A stretch of DNA of 50,470 nucleotides from an uncultured Lactobacillus sp. (lineage in GTDB: Bacteria; Bacillota; Bacilli; Lactobacillales; Lactobacillaceae): the NCBI GenBank assembly GCA_947641735.1, contig CANRQR010000007.1, forward strand, positions 1-50,470. Direction: 5' to 3'. The position numbers were made by a program, and so were the translations under genes. Shown here in pieces: positions 39,924 through 46,392 of the stretch; position 1 is the stretch's first letter; each line of letters opens with the position of its first letter. Below the pieces are notes generated by a model. The model was given only the letters and a program-made list of their open reading frames with translations. It did no database searches and had not been told where the DNA came from.

Positions 39924-40487
39924 ATGAAAAAATTACATGTAAGAGATATTATCTTAATTGCCTTAATTGCTATTATTTTTGGTTTTATTTATTTAGCTAG
40001 TGACGGCCTCTATAATGCTCTAACCGCTCTCCTAACTCCAATTGGCTATGGGATGTTAGCAAATGATATTATGATGGGAATCTGGTGTATGGCAGGACCA
40101 TTAGCCGGCTTTCTTGTTCGCATTCCTGGCTCTGCTTTCTTAGGAGAGTTCTTAGGTTCCTGCGTTGAATTGATTGCTGGGGAACAGTGGGGAGCTGTTA
40201 ATTTAATTTCTGGTGCCGTTCAAGGTCTAGGTAGTGAATTAGGTTTTACCTTTACTAGCTACCGTCGATATGATTGGTTTACGCTTTTCCTATCTGCTAC
40301 AACCACAACCATTGTCACTTATTTGTACGATTTCATAAAAAACGGCTATAGCTATTTTTCAACCTTTAATATGATTCTCTACTTTGTAGTTCGGTGGATC
40401 TCCATGCTCTTATTTACCTGTGTATTAGTAAAATTAATCGTAAATCTTTTAGAAAAAGCTCATGTCATCCAAACAAATCAAAATTAA
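39924..40487 (+). CDS. ykoE: ECF transporter S component for thiamine precursor (YkoE)
   Basis: A 187-residue membrane protein with about six segments that binds hydroxymethylpyrimidine or thiamine for an ECF importer. Family features are DIILIALIAIIFGFIYLASD, MANDIMMGIWCMAGPLAGFL without the start Met, and PGSAFLGEFLGSCVELIAG. Start ATG 39924 follows GGAGG; the in-frame TTG at 39912 lies before that site and is unlikely. Controlled by the TPP riboswitch. It overlaps ykoD by 26 bases. The TPP control and YkoE type identify the substrate class. Confidence 0.93.
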   Translation: MKKLHVRDIILIALIAIIFGFIYLASDGLYNALTALLTPIGYGMLANDIMMGIWCMAGPLAGFLVRIPGSAFLGEFLGSCVELIAGEQWGAVNLISGAVQGLGSELGFTFTSYRRYDWFTLFLSATTTTIVTYLYDFIKNGYSYFSTFNMILYFVVRWISMLLFTCVLVKLIVNLLEKAHVIQTNQN

Positions 40488-41808
40488 CCAACTTTCTTTT
40501 CAATACCAAGACAAATTAATTTTTAAGAATTTAGATTTTACTATTAACCAAGGCGACTTTGCCCTATTAACTGGTCCTAGCGGTTGCGGAAAATCTACAC
40601 TTTTAAAATTAATTGCTGGCCTTGAGCCTACTTCTACCAGCAAAATTACTACTGGCTCTTTAACTCAGCCCTTTACTAATTGGGGTATGGTCTTTCAAGA
40701 CCCTAATCGTCAATTCACCATGGCAACACCAAGAGAAGAGTTAATTTTTGCTTTAGAAAATAAACTAATTGATCGAGTTACTGCTCAAAAAATTATCGAT
40801 GAGGTTAGCCATAAAACGAATATTTCGCTTTTGTTAGACCGTCCCTTCCTTCATCTCTCAGGCGGTGAAAAGCAGCGTGTAGCCTTAGCTGTCTTAATTG
40901 CAATGCAAAGTGACCTCTTCTTATTAGATGAGCCATTTGCTAATTGCGACTCTCATAATCGAAATTTTCTGCTTAACTGCTTAGATTCACTCCATCAAGA
41001 CGGTAAAACAATTTTGATTAGTGATCATAACTTTGCTAATTATGAAAAAATTGATCCCAAAGTTTTTGCTATCAAAAATCAAAGAATTAAAACTTCTCCT
41101 CTACCTTCTCAAGAAGTAGTAGTAACCAATTTTTCTCTTCCTCATACAAATCAAGAATCAGTATATTCTTTTAATTCTTTTTCCCTATCATTCCCAGAAA
41201 AAGAGTTACTTTCTTCAACTAATTTAAAAATCTATTCTGGGAAAGCAACCCTCCTAACCGGAGAGAATGGTAGTGGTAAAACTTCTTTATTTAAGGCCTT
41301 AAGCAAGGTTATTACTTATCAGGGAGAACTACTCTTTAAAGATAAAGAGGTTAAAAATTGGCGTCGCCGCCCTTATTTGTCAAAAGTAGGACAAATTTTT
41401 CAAAATCCAGACGATCAATTCTTAAATGTTACGGTAAAAGAAGAATTAGATTTTAGCTTAAAATACAATCAAAATCCTTCTCTCAATGAGTCTAAGCTTC
41501 AGTCTATCCTAACTAAACTCAATTTAGAAAATATGGATGAACAAGTTATTTATTCTCTCTCTGGTGGTCAAAAAAAGAAGCTTCAAATTCTCGTCATGTT
41601 AATGGCCTATCCGGACGTTTTATTACTAGATGAACCATTTAGTGGTTTAGATCAAAAAAGCGTCTCAGAAGTTATTTTTTTGCTAAAGAACTACTTCCTA
41701 GATGCAAACCATAGCTTAATCGTAATTAGTCACCAGCTCGATCAAATTCAAAATCTATGTGACTATCATCTTGTTTTAAAAGGGCAACAACTTTTCTACG
41801 CTAAATAG
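40462..41808 (+). CDS. ykoD: ECF transporter double ATPase (YkoD)
   Basis: A 448-residue protein with two ABC ATPase domains fused in one chain. Domain one has Walker A GPSGCGKST and signature LSGGEKQRVAL with Walker B LFLLDEPF. Domain two has GENGSGKTS, LSGGQKKKLQI and VLLLDEPFSGLD. It powers thiamine-precursor uptake with YkoE and YkoC. Its ATG lies inside the 3' end of ykoE, and ykoC follows 11 bases later. Confidence 0.93.
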   Translation: MSSKQIKINQLSFQYQDKLIFKNLDFTINQGDFALLTGPSGCGKSTLLKLIAGLEPTSTSKITTGSLTQPFTNWGMVFQDPNRQFTMATPREELIFALENKLIDRVTAQKIIDEVSHKTNISLLLDRPFLHLSGGEKQRVALAVLIAMQSDLFLLDEPFANCDSHNRNFLLNCLDSLHQDGKTILISDHNFANYEKIDPKVFAIKNQRIKTSPLPSQEVVVTNFSLPHTNQESVYSFNSFSLSFPEKELLSSTNLKIYSGKATLLTGENGSGKTSLFKALSKVITYQGELLFKDKEVKNWRRRPYLSKVGQIFQNPDDQFLNVTVKEELDFSLKYNQNPSLNESKLQSILTKLNLENMDEQVIYSLSGGQKKKLQILVMLMAYPDVLLLDEPFSGLDQKSVSEVIFLLKNYFLDANHSLIVISHQLDQIQNLCDYHLVLKGQQLFYAK

Positions 41809-41819
41809 AGGTAAATAAA

Positions 41820-42473
41820 ATGAATCCCGGACTAAAATTATTTTTAATCTTAATTATTTCTCTGGAAATATCACTTGTGCCTAATTTAGGAGCAAATCTC
41901 ATTATTATCGGAGCTTGCCTTATCTATCTTCTGTTTAAGCACATTAACCTTAAGAAGCTATTTTTATTATTTATCATTCCTTTATTCGCGGCTTCCGTAG
42001 TTTTTATTACAATTTACTACTTCACTCCTAGCCGTAGTCTTTATCAAGCTTGTGTCTTGTTTACGAGAATTTACGCCTATGTTTTTTTAGGAGCTGCTTT
42101 CACTGAAACGACTTCTTTTCTTGCTCTAGCTCGTTCACTAGAACAAAATTTTAAATTACCCAGTAAGTTTGCTTATGGAACTCTAGCGGCCTTTAATGTT
42201 ATTCCAAAAATTCATGCCGAAGTGAATCGAATCCGCCTGGTCGGAGATATGAGACATTACCACTTATCTTTCTACTCACCGGCCTTATATTTTAAAGCAA
42301 TTTTATCCGCAGTTTCTTGGTCTAATAGTTTAGCTGATGGAATGATTTCACATGGCTATCGTGAAGACAAAGAAAGAAGTGTAATTGTTCCGATCGCCTT
42401 AACAAAAAAAGACTGGCTTATTTTTAGTAGCATCATAGTACTACTTCAACCAATCTTGTTTCTTCTCAAATAA
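41820..42473 (+). CDS. ykoC: ECF transporter T component (YkoC)
   Basis: A 217-residue membrane coupling protein (CbiQ family) with about five segments. The coupling helix signature is present as RIRLVGDMRHYH, with a second ATPase-contact motif in GMISHGYREDKERS. AGAGG lies before ATG 41820. Last gene of the TPP-controlled operon. Its stop codon abuts the convergent rlmH stop with no gap, so no separate terminator is possible there. Confidence 0.92.
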   Translation: MNPGLKLFLILIISLEISLVPNLGANLIIIGACLIYLLFKHINLKKLFLLFIIPLFAASVVFITIYYFTPSRSLYQACVLFTRIYAYVFLGAAFTETTSFLALARSLEQNFKLPSKFAYGTLAAFNVIPKIHAEVNRIRLVGDMRHYHLSFYSPALYFKAILSAVSWSNSLADGMISHGYREDKERSVIVPIALTKKDWLIFSSIIVLLQPILFLLK

Positions 42474-42953
42474 TTATTTATGGTATGGACTGCCGCTATT
42501 AATCATAAATGCACGGTAAATTTGTTCAATTAAAACCAAGCGCATTAATTGATGAGGCATTGTAAATTTACCAAAACTGATTAAGTCATCTGCTCGCTTA
42601 TTTACTGCGTCACTTGTACCGAGACTTCCTCCAATAACAAAGGTAATGTCAGAATGCCCATAAGTAGTTAAATTAGATAACTCTTTCGCAAAAGCCTCAC
42701 TAGTTCGCTCTTTCCCCTTAATTGCAGTTACATAAACATATTCTTTATCTTTTATCTTATCTAAAATTCTTTTTCCCTCGATTTCTTTGACCTGTTCCAT
42801 TTCAGCAGGACTTAGTTTTTCGGGGGCTTTTTCATCTGGAACTTGAACTATTTTTACTTTTGCAAAACGACTCATTCTCTTTACATATTCTGCAATTCCT
42901 TCTTTAAAATACTTTTCCTTTAATTTCCCTACACAGACAATTTTTATATTCAT
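42474..42953 (-). CDS. rlmH: 23S rRNA pseudouridine-1915 N3-methyltransferase
   Basis: Methylates pseudouridine 1915 in helix 69 of 23S rRNA using S-adenosylmethionine. The 159-residue length is standard for this SPOUT enzyme. Motifs are [17 protein letters not shown] at the start, [14 protein letters not shown] (SAM knot) and [20 protein letters not shown] with the C-terminal SGSPYHK. AAAGGG precedes ATG 42953. Its place beside the wal operon is typical of Firmicutes. Confidence 0.97.
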
Positions 42954-43033
42954 GCTAATTTATCCCTTTCACACATCTAGCTTTTTATTTTATCCCCTAA
43001 TTGACATAGCGTCCACATGAGTTTTCCCCTGGC

Positions 43034-43319
43034 TGTGGATTACTAAAAACTATATTTAGTGGTTTACTCAATTACCTCTCAACAAATTGTGGTTTATAAA
43101 AAAGTGGATAACTTTTTTACAAAATTTATTCCACATTTTTATAAATTTGATTAATTTTCCAAACTTTTCGCTCTATCCCTTACAGACTAGGATTGAACAG
43201 CCGTTCAACTTTTATAAAATCATGACTTAATTTACACACAATTCACAAGTTTTCCACATTTTTATTTTTATTATTGCCAACTTATGCACAATCCACAGAG
43301 TTTTCCACATTTTCCCACA
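43034..43319. other. Cluster of DnaA-box-like sequences
   Basis: Relative to TTATCCACA, 8 of 9 matches are TGTGGATTA (43034-43042, reverse), AGTGGATAA (43103-43111, reverse), TTTTCCACA (43250-43258), TTATGCACA (43282-43290, also a perfect TTATNCACA) and TTTTCCACA (43301-43309). Matches at 7 of 9 occur at 43088-43096 (reverse), 43127-43135, 43289-43297 and 43311-43319. Nine sites in 286 bases is far above chance, even in AT-rich DNA. Left-hand sites point mostly one way and right-hand sites the other. The cluster could be a DnaA-binding titration or regulatory locus, or an origin-like element. Confidence 0.7.
43193..43208. repeat. Inverted repeat inside the DnaA-box cluster
   Basis: TTGAAC, four bases (AGCC) and GTTCAA form a 6-bp-arm palindrome between the two groups of DnaA boxes. 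It may be a protein-binding site. It lacks a T run and is not a terminator. Confidence 0.5.
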
Positions 43320-43395
43320 ATCTATTCGATAATTCTAAGATCTTGACAATTTTAAAATGCGAACTTTATTAGGTTTCACACTTTAAATATTAAGA

Positions 43396-43450
43396 AAAAG
43401 CTATGATTACCGCTTACAAATCGTATAATCATAGCTTTTTTATCTCTATT
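43396..43450 (-). terminator. Terminator of the wal-htrA operon
   Basis: AAAAAGCTATGATTA and TAATCATAGCTTTTTT form a 15-bp stem just past the htrA stop codon. Confidence 0.9.
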
Positions 43451-43463
43451 TAATAATATTCAA

Positions 43464-44684
43464 TTAACTTAAGGTAACTTTGATATCTTGTGATTTTCCA
43501 TCTCTAACCACTTGAAGGGTTACTGTATCGCCAATCTTATGTGCATAAAGAGCTGTATGTAGTGAAACAACGCTATCCACATCTTTGCCATCAATCTTCG
43601 TAATTACATCACGAGCCTTGATACCAGCCTTCTCTGCACTACCATTCTTGGTCACACTAGCGACATAGACACCAGATTTAACACTGTCAGGCAAACCAAG
43701 TTTCTTGCGGCCATATTCTGTTAATTCATCAACAGATACAATTCTTACGCCTAATTTAGGACGCGTAATTTTACCATTCTTAACCAATTGATTAATAATT
43801 GAAACAACTTCATCACTAGGAATTGCAAAGCCCATTCCTTCAACGGCAGTCCCATCACTAGAAGAAGACAATTTCATTGAGTTAATACCAATTACTTGGC
43901 CAGACATATTAACTAATGGACCACCTGAATTACCGGGGTTAATAGCTGCATCAGTCTGAATAACGGTTGCCTGATTAGTTACTTGGCCAGATGAATTAGT
44001 TACATCTATTGTTCTATTCTTAGCAGAAATAATACCTTGAGTTACACTAGTTGCATATTCGCTCCCAAGTGGAGAACCAACAGCAATTACTTGTTGACCT
44101 GGCTCTAAGTTCTTAGATGAACCAAATTGGGCAGTTTGAGTAACATATTTACCATCAATAGTTAAGACAGCCAAGTCTGTTTCTGCATCAGTTCCGACTT
44201 TTTTAGCCGTTACCTTTTTACCATCGCTTAAAATAACTTGGATTTCATCACTTCCAGAAACCACGTGATTATTGGTTACAATGTAGCCTTTACCATTAGA
44301 TTTCATGTAAATAACTCCAGAACCTTCACTGTAAGTTTCTAAATCTGATTTAGAATTCTTCTTTGAAGAGCTGGAACTATCAGACCCAAAAATACCAAAT
44401 GGATCACTAGTTGAAGAAGAACTTTGTCTCTTCAAATTTACAACAGAAACAACAGAATTCTTTACCGTATTAAAGGCATTAGTCATCTGACTGCTGTTCT
44501 TACTGTTAGACTTCTCAACCTTAGCTGTTGGCGCAACAGTTGTTTGTGGAGCATTCTGTCCGTTAATTTGAGACAAACCTGCATAAGCTACTCCACCACC
44601 GAGTAATCCTGCAACCACTCCTACAATACCAGTTTTAATTAGAGCATTATGCTTATTAGAGTTCTTAGTATTATTTTCTGCCAT
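43464..44684 (-). CDS. htrA: HtrA/DegP-like serine protease
   Basis: A 406-residue membrane-anchored protease that degrades misfolded exported proteins. It has a membrane helix (about 16-36), a Ser-rich linker (88-113), a trypsin-like domain with His140 (TNNHVV), Asp170 (ETDLAVL) and Ser253 (NPGNSGGP), and one PDZ domain (about 310-400, with GVYVASVTKNGSAEKAGI). AAAGGAG precedes ATG 44684. It lies 83 bases after walJ on the same strand and is probably read both with the wal operon and from its own promoter in that gap. Confidence 0.96.
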   Translation of the reverse strand: MAENNTKNSNKHNALIKTGIVGVVAGLLGGGVAYAGLSQINGQNAPQTTVAPTAKVEKSNSKNSSQMTNAFNTVKNSVVSVVNLKRQSSSSTSDPFGIFGSDSSSSSKKNSKSDLETYSEGSGVIYMKSNGKGYIVTNNHVVSGSDEIQVILSDGKKVTAKKVGTDAETDLAVLTIDGKYVTQTAQFGSSKNLEPGQQVIAVGSPLGSEYATSVTQGIISAKNRTIDVTNSSGQVTNQATVIQTDAAINPGNSGGPLVNMSGQVIGINSMKLSSSSDGTAVEGMGFAIPSDEVVSIINQLVKNGKITRPKLGVRIVSVDELTEYGRKKLGLPDSVKSGVYVASVTKNGSAEKAGIKARDVITKIDGKDVDSVVSLHTALYAHKIGDTVTLQVVRDGKSQDIKVTLS

Positions 44685-44767
44685 AAAAATTCTCCTTTTC
44701 TATTCACTCTAGCCTAATCACAAATTTTGAATTTTTTATGAATTCAAGTCAAATTATTTGCTAAAAA

Positions 44768-45565
44768 TTATATTTCTGTGAGTGATCCGGCTTCTAGTGG
44801 ATTGGTATCAATAATTTTAACATCTGCGGGCAGATTTGCATCCCCTGCAACCAATAAATCATGTGCAGTCTCATGAGCTAAATACTGAGTATTATTATGT
44901 TGACTACGGTGGGCCAAAAAGATGTTTTTAGTTTTTGGAGAAACAACATCAAGTAGCGTATCAGCTGCCTGATCATTTGAAAGATGTCCCACATCTGACA
45001 TAATTCGATGCTTTAAAGACCAAGAATACGGTCCATTTCTAAGCATCATATCATCATAATTAAATTCCATTAAATAGCCATCTGCATCCTTAATTTCGCC
45101 TTTAACATTGCTTGAAACATATCCCGTATCCGTTAAACAAGCAAATCTTTTACCGCCACTGCTAAAAACATAATATTGGGGTTCAGCTGCATCATGACTA
45201 GTAGCAAAACTAGTCACATCTAAGTCACCAAAAGTTTTCGTTACCCCAGATTCAAAAGTATTGATCTGTTCAACAGGCAAGTTACCAATTTTCTTACTTT
45301 CAATTAAATAATTCCAGGTACCTGAATTTGCATAAGCTGAAATTTGTGGATACCGTCTCATTAAGACTCCTAAGCCCCCTGAATGATCGGTATGGTCATG
45401 ACTAATGAAAATCATATCAATATCTTTAATATCAACTCCGACTTGAGCTAGTAAGTCCTTGGTCTTTTTTCCAGATAAACCTGCATCCATCAAAATTTTG
45501 TGTTGCTCAGTTTCTATTAAAGTAGAATTACCTGTTGATCCGCTTGATAAAACTGATACTTTCAC
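44768..45565 (-). CDS. walJ: WalJ (YycJ/VicX) metallo-beta-lactamase-fold protein
   Basis: A 265-residue MBL-fold hydrolase of the WalJ family, with SVLSSGSTGNSTLIET at the start and the metal motif ISHDHTDHSGG (HxHxDH). Family members are linked to DNA replication and cell division, and exonuclease activity is known for relatives. GTG 45565 is preferred because AAGGAG ends 8 bases before it; a GTG at 45574 overlaps that site and the walI stop. Fifth gene of walR-K-H-I-J. Confidence 0.93.
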   Translation of the reverse strand: MKVSVLSSGSTGNSTLIETEQHKILMDAGLSGKKTKDLLAQVGVDIKDIDMIFISHDHTDHSGGLGVLMRRYPQISAYANSGTWNYLIESKKIGNLPVEQINTFESGVTKTFGDLDVTSFATSHDAAEPQYYVFSSGGKRFACLTDTGYVSSNVKGEIKDADGYLMEFNYDDMMLRNGPYSWSLKHRIMSDVGHLSNDQAADTLLDVVSPKTKNIFLAHRSQHNNTQYLAHETAHDLLVAGDANLPADVKIIDTNPLEAGSLTEI

Positions 45566-45570
45566 ATTTT

Positions 45571-46392
45571 TCACTCCTTAAAATCATCAGTCGTAACATT
45601 ATTTTGAATAATTGTTCCTGTAAATGCGTTTACCCGCTTCAAGGTAACTGTCTTAGAAGTATTATTTTCAATTGCTGCTAACCAAGTTGGAATATAAATA
45701 GTATTTCCCTTAACTGTTAATAATTTAGTATAAACTTGCTTCAATAAGATAACCTTAGAATTATTTGGCAATTCACTGTAAGTATATAACGAGTCAACCG
45801 CTGTTTTTGAACTAATTGTATTTTGCCTCTCACGGACAGGATCTAAATCATCAACATAGCTTTGGGAATAAGAGACAATTTGATTATCTTTTACAATAAT
45901 ATGAAGCCGAGCTGTTGCAGCAAAGAATTCTCCATATTTAGTCTTTTGGTTAAAAATATAATCGTCCCCCTCAGATAATTCTGAAAGGTAAGTATAATTT
46001 TTACCTTGATATACATTTTGGCTGTCATCCTTAAAACGCATCACTTGTCTCAGGGCTTCTTTTTTATTTTTAGATAAAGTAATTGGCTTATCTAAATGAA
46101 CAGAAATAAGATTTTCACTTGAATTATTTTCTACTTGTCCCTTTACCTGCTGAGTAGCTTTTTTGATCCAAGAATTATCAGTCTTGGCAGCCAAATAATA
46201 TCCATCTTCTTGTTTATCGTTAACCTTTGGAATAGTAATCTGATCAGCACTTGTTTCGCTCTTAATATCAGTCTGAGTCGGAGTAGAACCAGCAGATAAG
46301 AGAGTTGGCGTTTGCCATAATTCAATTCCCAAAAAGATATTAATTCCGATAAATACAATTAAAAATATCCATTCAATTCTTTTAAAGTCCAT
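45571..46392 (-). CDS. walI: WalI (YycI) regulator of WalK
   Basis: A 273-residue protein with one N-terminal membrane helix (IEWIFLIVFIGINIFLGIEL, 6-25) and an extracellular YycI domain made of two similar halves. With WalH it contacts WalK in the membrane and tunes its kinase activity. AAAGGAGGGA lies 7 bases before ATG 46392, which overlaps the walH stop by 11 bases. Its own end overlaps the walJ start region. Confidence 0.92.
   Translation of the reverse strand: MDFKRIEWIFLIVFIGINIFLGIELWQTPTLLSAGSTPTQTDIKSETSADQITIPKVNDKQEDGYYLAAKTDNSWIKKATQQVKGQVENNSSENLISVHLDKPITLSKNKKEALRQVMRFKDDSQNVYQGKNYTYLSELSEGDDYIFNQKTKYGEFFAATARLHIIVKDNQIVSYSQSYVDDLDPVRERQNTISSKTAVDSLYTYSELPNNSKVILLKQVYTKLLTVKGNTIYIPTWLAAIENNTSKTVTLKRVNAFTGTIIQNNVTTDDFKE

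Follow-up and report, generated by a model that had tools for sequence, protein, structure and literature searches.

A conserved DnaA-box cluster upstream of rlmH near oriC in Lactobacillus, a likely counterpart of the Bacillus subtilis yydA region

The window analysed here, meaning the whole stretch of 50,470 nucleotides, is contig 7 of a draft assembly from an uncultured Lactobacillus sp. (1.46-Mb genome, 70 contigs, 72% complete). The best named match of its RlmH is that of Lactobacillus taiwanensis (96%), in a comparison from which near-identical records may be missing. A 510-bp gap (42954–43463) holding the DnaA-box cluster separates rlmH, encoding a SPOUT methyltransferase (42474–42953, minus strand; PF02590, E 4.6e-57), from htrA, encoding a trypsin-like peptidase with a PDZ domain (43464–44684, minus strand; PF13365 and PF13180). 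Because both genes are on the minus strand, the gap follows htrA and precedes rlmH in the direction of transcription. Past htrA follow a metallo-beta-lactamase-fold gene, two ORFs, a WalK-type kinase and a response regulator, which we take to be the walRK neighbourhood. The gap, 71% A+T, contains no ORF of 80 amino acids, in line with the earlier note, which had seen no gene there, and a six-frame translation of 12 of the 33 same-genus gaps showed, by eye, no short frame in common. A search for known RNAs across positions 40000–46000 returned two matches, both far under the curated cut-off. The dnaA gene of the draft genome is on a different contig (G000:C11), in keeping with the earlier note's remark that dnaA is not nearby.

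A terminator-like hairpin with 15-nt perfect arms follows htrA (43395–43440). Its loop contains TGTTTCACGT, presumably the left part of the parS consensus, in L012, L014 and L016, and this element was not seen in the other gaps inspected. Between the hairpin and the box cluster, conserved TTGACA (43343–43348), CGAAC and TGTTnCACA blocks occupy 43343–43380 on the plus strand. The TTGACA faces the htrA terminator and is possibly the promoter of a short RNA that ends there; no conserved -10 element for it was found by eye.

We searched for DnaA boxes with the consensus TTATCCACA, allowing at most one or at most two mismatches, and used dinucleotide-preserving shuffles as the null. The 286 bp at 43034–43319 contain 11 matches at 7 or 8 of 9 positions (5 with one mismatch and 6 with two), two more than the nine previously counted there. 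Shuffled versions averaged 0.20 boxes at the stricter threshold and 1.97 at the looser one, and the observed counts were reached in 0 of 2000. Likewise, the whole 510-bp gap has 5 boxes at the stricter threshold and 12 at the looser one, against shuffled means of 0.27 and 2.8, either count being reached in 0 of 2000 shuffles. Several DnaA boxes are thus clustered in this intergenic region beyond chance. None of the boxes in the gap is an exact TTATCCACA. The three left boxes of the 286-bp stretch are TGTGGATAA-like and the remaining eight TTATCCACA-like, so that the two orientations and the left and right groups described earlier are indeed present.

This stretch is the densest of its length within the window at both thresholds. 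Across the whole window, 27 boxes with at most one mismatch were found where 15.3 were expected, a count that 1 of 100 shuffles reaches; since this enrichment is only mild, the signal is local. For comparison at genome scale, we used G036, a near relative assembled as one contig whose RlmH is 99% identical. Its 2.0 Mb contain 682 boxes with at most one mismatch, versus 469 for the reversed-pattern control. Among eleven 20-kb stretches sampled in G036, a density of 5 boxes per 286 bp occurred only in the one with the rlmH-htrA gap, while the other ten had at most 2; the stretch ending at dnaA has 7. Pair searches in five genomes gave few dense spots, and those with 5 boxes per 300 bp (at most one mismatch) were the rlmH gaps and one place in G031, inside an 846-aa ORF (L269); not all dense spots are therefore at rlmH. 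Elsewhere in G036, about 101 kb from the other contig end, three DnaA boxes lie upstream of an ATPase gene that is Clp-like by eye (L280, 1468–1530), and similar box pairs were listed in four other genomes of the genus.

Two modules of boxes are read on the minus strand. Module 1 (43282–43319) consists of tandem boxes at 43311–43319, 43301–43309, 43289–43297 and 43282–43290, reading toward rlmH. Module 2 (43232–43258), a second copy of the array, lies 51 bp from module 1 and has boxes at 43250–43258 and 43232–43240 with TGTGAATTG between them. Closer to rlmH, two opposed boxes (43103–43111 and 43127–43135) fall within a 25-nt imperfect inverted repeat (43093–43145; arms 80% complementary), and the minus-strand box TAATCCACA (43034–43042) is the closest to rlmH of the one-mismatch boxes. 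A conserved AGGGGATAAAAT block on the minus strand (42987–42998), overlapping a two-mismatch box at 42990–42998, is a possible -10 region of the rlmH promoter.

The tandem array TGTGGAnA-n-TGTG[GA]ATTGTG, directed toward rlmH, is present in 32 of 33 same-genus gaps and, with one base changed, in the 33rd (L041). In 21 of the 33, a second module follows 51–54 bp further on, near five helical turns. A similar array pattern occurs at 61 places in 37 of 41 genus genomes, and its reversed control gave no match. By manual count, 48 of these places (32 genomes) are at most 1 kb upstream of rlmH and 7 are elsewhere; the remaining 6 belong to four genomes in which the position of rlmH was not located. 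G036 has a single exact copy of the core TGTGGATTGTGCATAA, at the gap; a copy with one mismatch lies at the dnaA end of the contig, 283 bp in, and the remaining 18 matches have three mismatches each. As the one-mismatch copy adjoins dnaA, oriC uses a nearly identical array. From the ORF layout and the matching own locus, we infer that the G036 contig begins at dnaA.

Other motifs are interspersed with the boxes. The inverted repeat TTGAACAGCCGTTCAA (GAAC-N4-GTTC; 43193–43208), an uncertain candidate for a LexA-type box, was previously described as the element that the boxes surround. The repeat is present, but it is not a conserved centre of the cluster, for its left arm reads AAAC rather than GAAC in the genus consensus. 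In G036, GAACNNNNGTTC occurs at 9 places, one being the repeat in the gap and another just upstream of recA. Two conserved ACCACAAWWTRTAG-like blocks (43049–43063 and 43080–43093, minus-strand reading), about 30 bp apart, resemble paired NrdR boxes. A loose NrdR-like pattern gave 135 and 125 matches on the two strands of G036, where its reversed version gave 102 and 86. Similar boxes with a different spelling, 31 bp apart by eye, occur in the promoter of an nrdD-like 741-aa ORF that has an ATP-cone. In other families, a palindrome upstream of rlmH had been considered as paired NrdR boxes around a LexA box; we rejected this candidate, since in the genomes that have YyzF (PF14116, 17 of 47) the palindrome proved to be the end of the yyzF coding sequence (one translated by eye).

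The comparison across Lactobacillus genomes that had been proposed revealed conservation of the cluster: all 33 same-genus htrA-rlmH gaps, the window's own included, have 3 to 8 boxes at the stricter threshold. When 32 of these gaps were aligned (L019, with a gap of 906 bp, was left out here but counted elsewhere), the commonest base averaged 0.82 in the columns of the reference boxes versus 0.58 in the other columns, and among 513 circular shifts of the box mask this difference was reached only by the unshifted one. Conserved blocks other than DnaA boxes are also present in the gap.

Among named relatives, represented by the best 80 of 512 confirmed loci, 75 of 80 have at least three boxes in the kilobase upstream of rlmH. 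These counts were reached by 0 of 100 shuffles in 73 of the 75 loci and by 1 of 100 in L162 and L172. Over these best 80 of 512, that kilobase has a density of 6.4 boxes per kb; the density falls to 0.67 one kilobase further upstream, and is 0.35 on the downstream side of rlmH and 0.34 in shuffled sequence. Of the five exceptions, L202, L206 and L238 have 7 or 8 boxes in the second kilobase upstream, and L212 and L226 (Lacticaseibacillus) have zero boxes within 2 kb upstream of rlmH. The related genomes in these cross-genome counts are not independent of one another. A contig titled Faecalicatena absiana (L179) carries a Lactobacillus-like rlmH (86% identical) together with the cluster; this record may be mislabelled or mixed.

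Beyond the genus, we took genomes of the same order and class to be Lactobacillales and Bacilli, respectively. Shuffle controls covered the window, the class genomes and the named loci, and the 23 order loci were counted without shuffles: in the 1 kb upstream of rlmH, 18 have three or more boxes and 20 have two or more. L061 attains its count of three only through scattered boxes (best 1 per 292 bp), and L052 has no box within the stretch inspected. In L053 and L062, the cluster is beside htrA and away from rlmH, with about 1–2 kb of DNA intervening. Such insertions near rlmH recall, we assume, the SCC attachment gene orfX of staphylococci, though the SCC site is at the other end of orfX. L056, L058 and L063 have a denser box group 2–4 kb further off, which is perhaps oriC itself. 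The class sample comprised 40 genomes, mostly one per family, from 106 same-class genomes with a match. At least three boxes were found in the kilobase upstream of rlmH in 19 of the 40, each count being reached by 0 of 200 shuffles, and the other 21 have 0 or 1 box. Several other families have two boxes about 13 bp apart, at most about 60 bp from the rlmH start.

The same place in the genome carries a characterized DnaA region in B. subtilis, whose yydA we take to be rlmH, an identity that gene order supports. YyzF (PF14116) was found in 17 of 47 genomes searched; of 14 named controls, only B. subtilis gave a match. It is at most 320 bp upstream of rlmH in 15 of the 17, matching the yyzF-yydA order, and its distance from rlmH is 2.8 kb in G096 and 1.0 kb in G170. 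Given this equivalence, the Lactobacillus cluster is at a position orthologous to the known cluster upstream of yydA. None of nine genus genomes searched has YyzF, so in them the cluster exists without yyzF. In B. subtilis, the yyzF-yydA region is one of eight high-affinity DnaA regions, with a Kd of 0.16 uM (ATP form) upstream of yydA, and DnaA appears to repress yyzF-yydD; an excerpt of PMC8203912 lists yyzF-yydABCD as directly regulated.

In our view, this oriC-proximal DnaA-box cluster is likely to correspond, in Lactobacillus, to the B. subtilis yydA (rlmH) region, titrating DnaA and probably repressing rlmH. Besides its enrichment, conservation and position, the near-identical array beside dnaA and the B. 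subtilis findings on DnaA binding, on yyzF-yydD repression and on deletion of six clusters (early initiation) speak for this reading. Given its conservation and the place it shares with the B. subtilis cluster, it probably serves as an ancient brake on replication and rlmH, not as a second origin. Among the roles put forward in the earlier note, the conservation and shared position support two: DnaA titration or another replication control, and regulation of rlmH by DnaA. Regulation of htrA by DnaA is improbable, given that the cluster comes after the 3' end of htrA and its terminator-like hairpin. We infer DnaA binding, titration and repression in Lactobacillus, and picture them as follows. 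DnaA would bind along the phased tandem boxes of the modules, and part of its pool would be held away from oriC, restraining initiation. The locus is about 88 kb from oriC in G036 and would be copied early after oriC fires; titration capacity would therefore double at the moment when re-initiation must be avoided. The bound DnaA would adjoin the rlmH promoter and probably repress rlmH as a second output. The box pair about 13 bp apart near the rlmH start in several families fits such repression, and in Lactobacillus the equivalent place is occupied by the conserved AGGGGATAAAAT block. The repression part is weakened by L053 and L062, whose cluster remains by htrA. Against the reading as a whole stand the lack of an exact TTATCCACA in the gap, the 21 of 40 class genomes with 0 or 1 box, the absence of boxes from the stretches inspected in L052, L212 and L226, and the description of B. 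subtilis as not over-initiating when DnaA is overproduced about 10-fold.

The balance between the two outputs could also be reversed, the cluster being mainly a transcription switch by which DnaA ties the repression (or activation) of rlmH to the replication cycle, with titration incidental. Most genomes with the cluster carry it upstream of rlmH, the closely spaced pair of several families is near the rlmH start, and the apparent repression of yyzF-yydD by DnaA in B. subtilis points the same way; however, up to 12 boxes across more than 300 bp exceed the need of a simple operator, and where cluster and rlmH are parted, in L053 and L062, the cluster has remained by htrA. We regard such a switch as rather unlikely. 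Far less probable is a chance likeness in A+T-rich DNA, or a set of sites for another regulator that resemble DnaA boxes: loose matches are indeed common (203 with at most two mismatches in the window) and the gap has further conserved blocks that are not DnaA boxes, but 0 of 2000 shuffles reach the counts, the conserved columns are the box columns, and exact TTATCCACA is present in many relatives.

The earlier note had also considered a secondary origin-like element, and the array does resemble the one beside dnaA and sits in A+T-rich DNA. A secondary or ancestral replication origin is nevertheless the explanation to which we give the least credence. The GC skew of G036 keeps a positive sign across the cluster (0.118 before it, 0.097 after it), with no switch there; one 10-kb piece further off has a value of -0.004, and at the dnaA end the skew turns from -0.131 to 0.081. 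In the window, both flanks of the gap have a negative skew. A simple pattern test found no run of three TA[GA], that is, no DnaA-trio, in the gap; the same test found none in the piece upstream of dnaA in G036, and a TAG-repeat DnaA-trio run, TAGTAGTAG, is found between dnaA and dnaN of that genome. The lack of both a skew switch and a DnaA-trio at the gap argues against a second origin, and in the excerpt of PMC11019786 the use of alternative origins in B. subtilis is called unlikely.

We also put forward, as a tentative proposal that is less likely than not, a more far-reaching reading. The rlmH cluster might be an ancestral replication-control locus of the Bacilli, a Gram-positive analogue of datA, in which the fixed two-module array (TGTGGAwAA, TGTGGATTG, TGTGcATAA, repeated 51–54 bp on) builds a defined DnaA oligomer and the place near oriC has been selected for duplication timing and not for rlmH control.

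What is new here is the breadth of conservation and the two-module array; this kind of cluster is itself already known from B. subtilis. In the open-licence literature searched, we found no report of the Lactobacillus rlmH DnaA-box cluster, and neither its breadth of conservation nor the two-module array in print. Work on DnaA-box clusters other than oriC has centred on E. coli and B. subtilis (excerpts of PMC5295017 and PMC13220808), and their importance in B. subtilis is disputed. If one such cluster has stayed in place between Bacillus-type genomes and Lactobacillus, even where its neighbour yyzF was lost, then DnaA titration or rlmH control would be old and under selection, and Lactobacillus would offer an independent testing ground for either. 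The conserved array, moreover, reveals the box spacing that selection keeps.

The closest known system is the B. subtilis yydA region, which shares with the Lactobacillus locus a DnaA-box cluster directly upstream of rlmH and a place near oriC (at 4113 kb, with the trmE peak beside oriC at 4191 kb, compared with about 88 kb in G036). The two differ in that the B. subtilis locus has an intervening yyzF, of which the nine Lactobacillus genomes searched gave no match, and in that the two-module spacing is the Lactobacillus array's own. DnaA binding to the rlmH-upstream region has been demonstrated in B. subtilis only, the Lactobacillus sites being predicted. We assume that the yydA cluster is one of six B. 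subtilis clusters whose deletions have been studied jointly. As a set, these oriC-proximal clusters resemble the Lactobacillus one in being groups of boxes outside oriC but near it, and differ in that an effect on initiation is known for them, from the six deletions together: initiation came early (excerpts of PMC5295017 and PMC13220808). Their role is called inhibitory, by sequestering DnaA, in the excerpt of PMC11019786, and about 10-fold overproduction of DnaA in B. subtilis is described, again in excerpt, as not leading to over-initiation. E. coli datA has features of its own, namely a requirement for IHF and the promotion of DnaA-ATP hydrolysis; what it has in common with the Lactobacillus cluster is that it is a non-coding group of DnaA boxes thought to restrain initiation (excerpt of PMC5295017).
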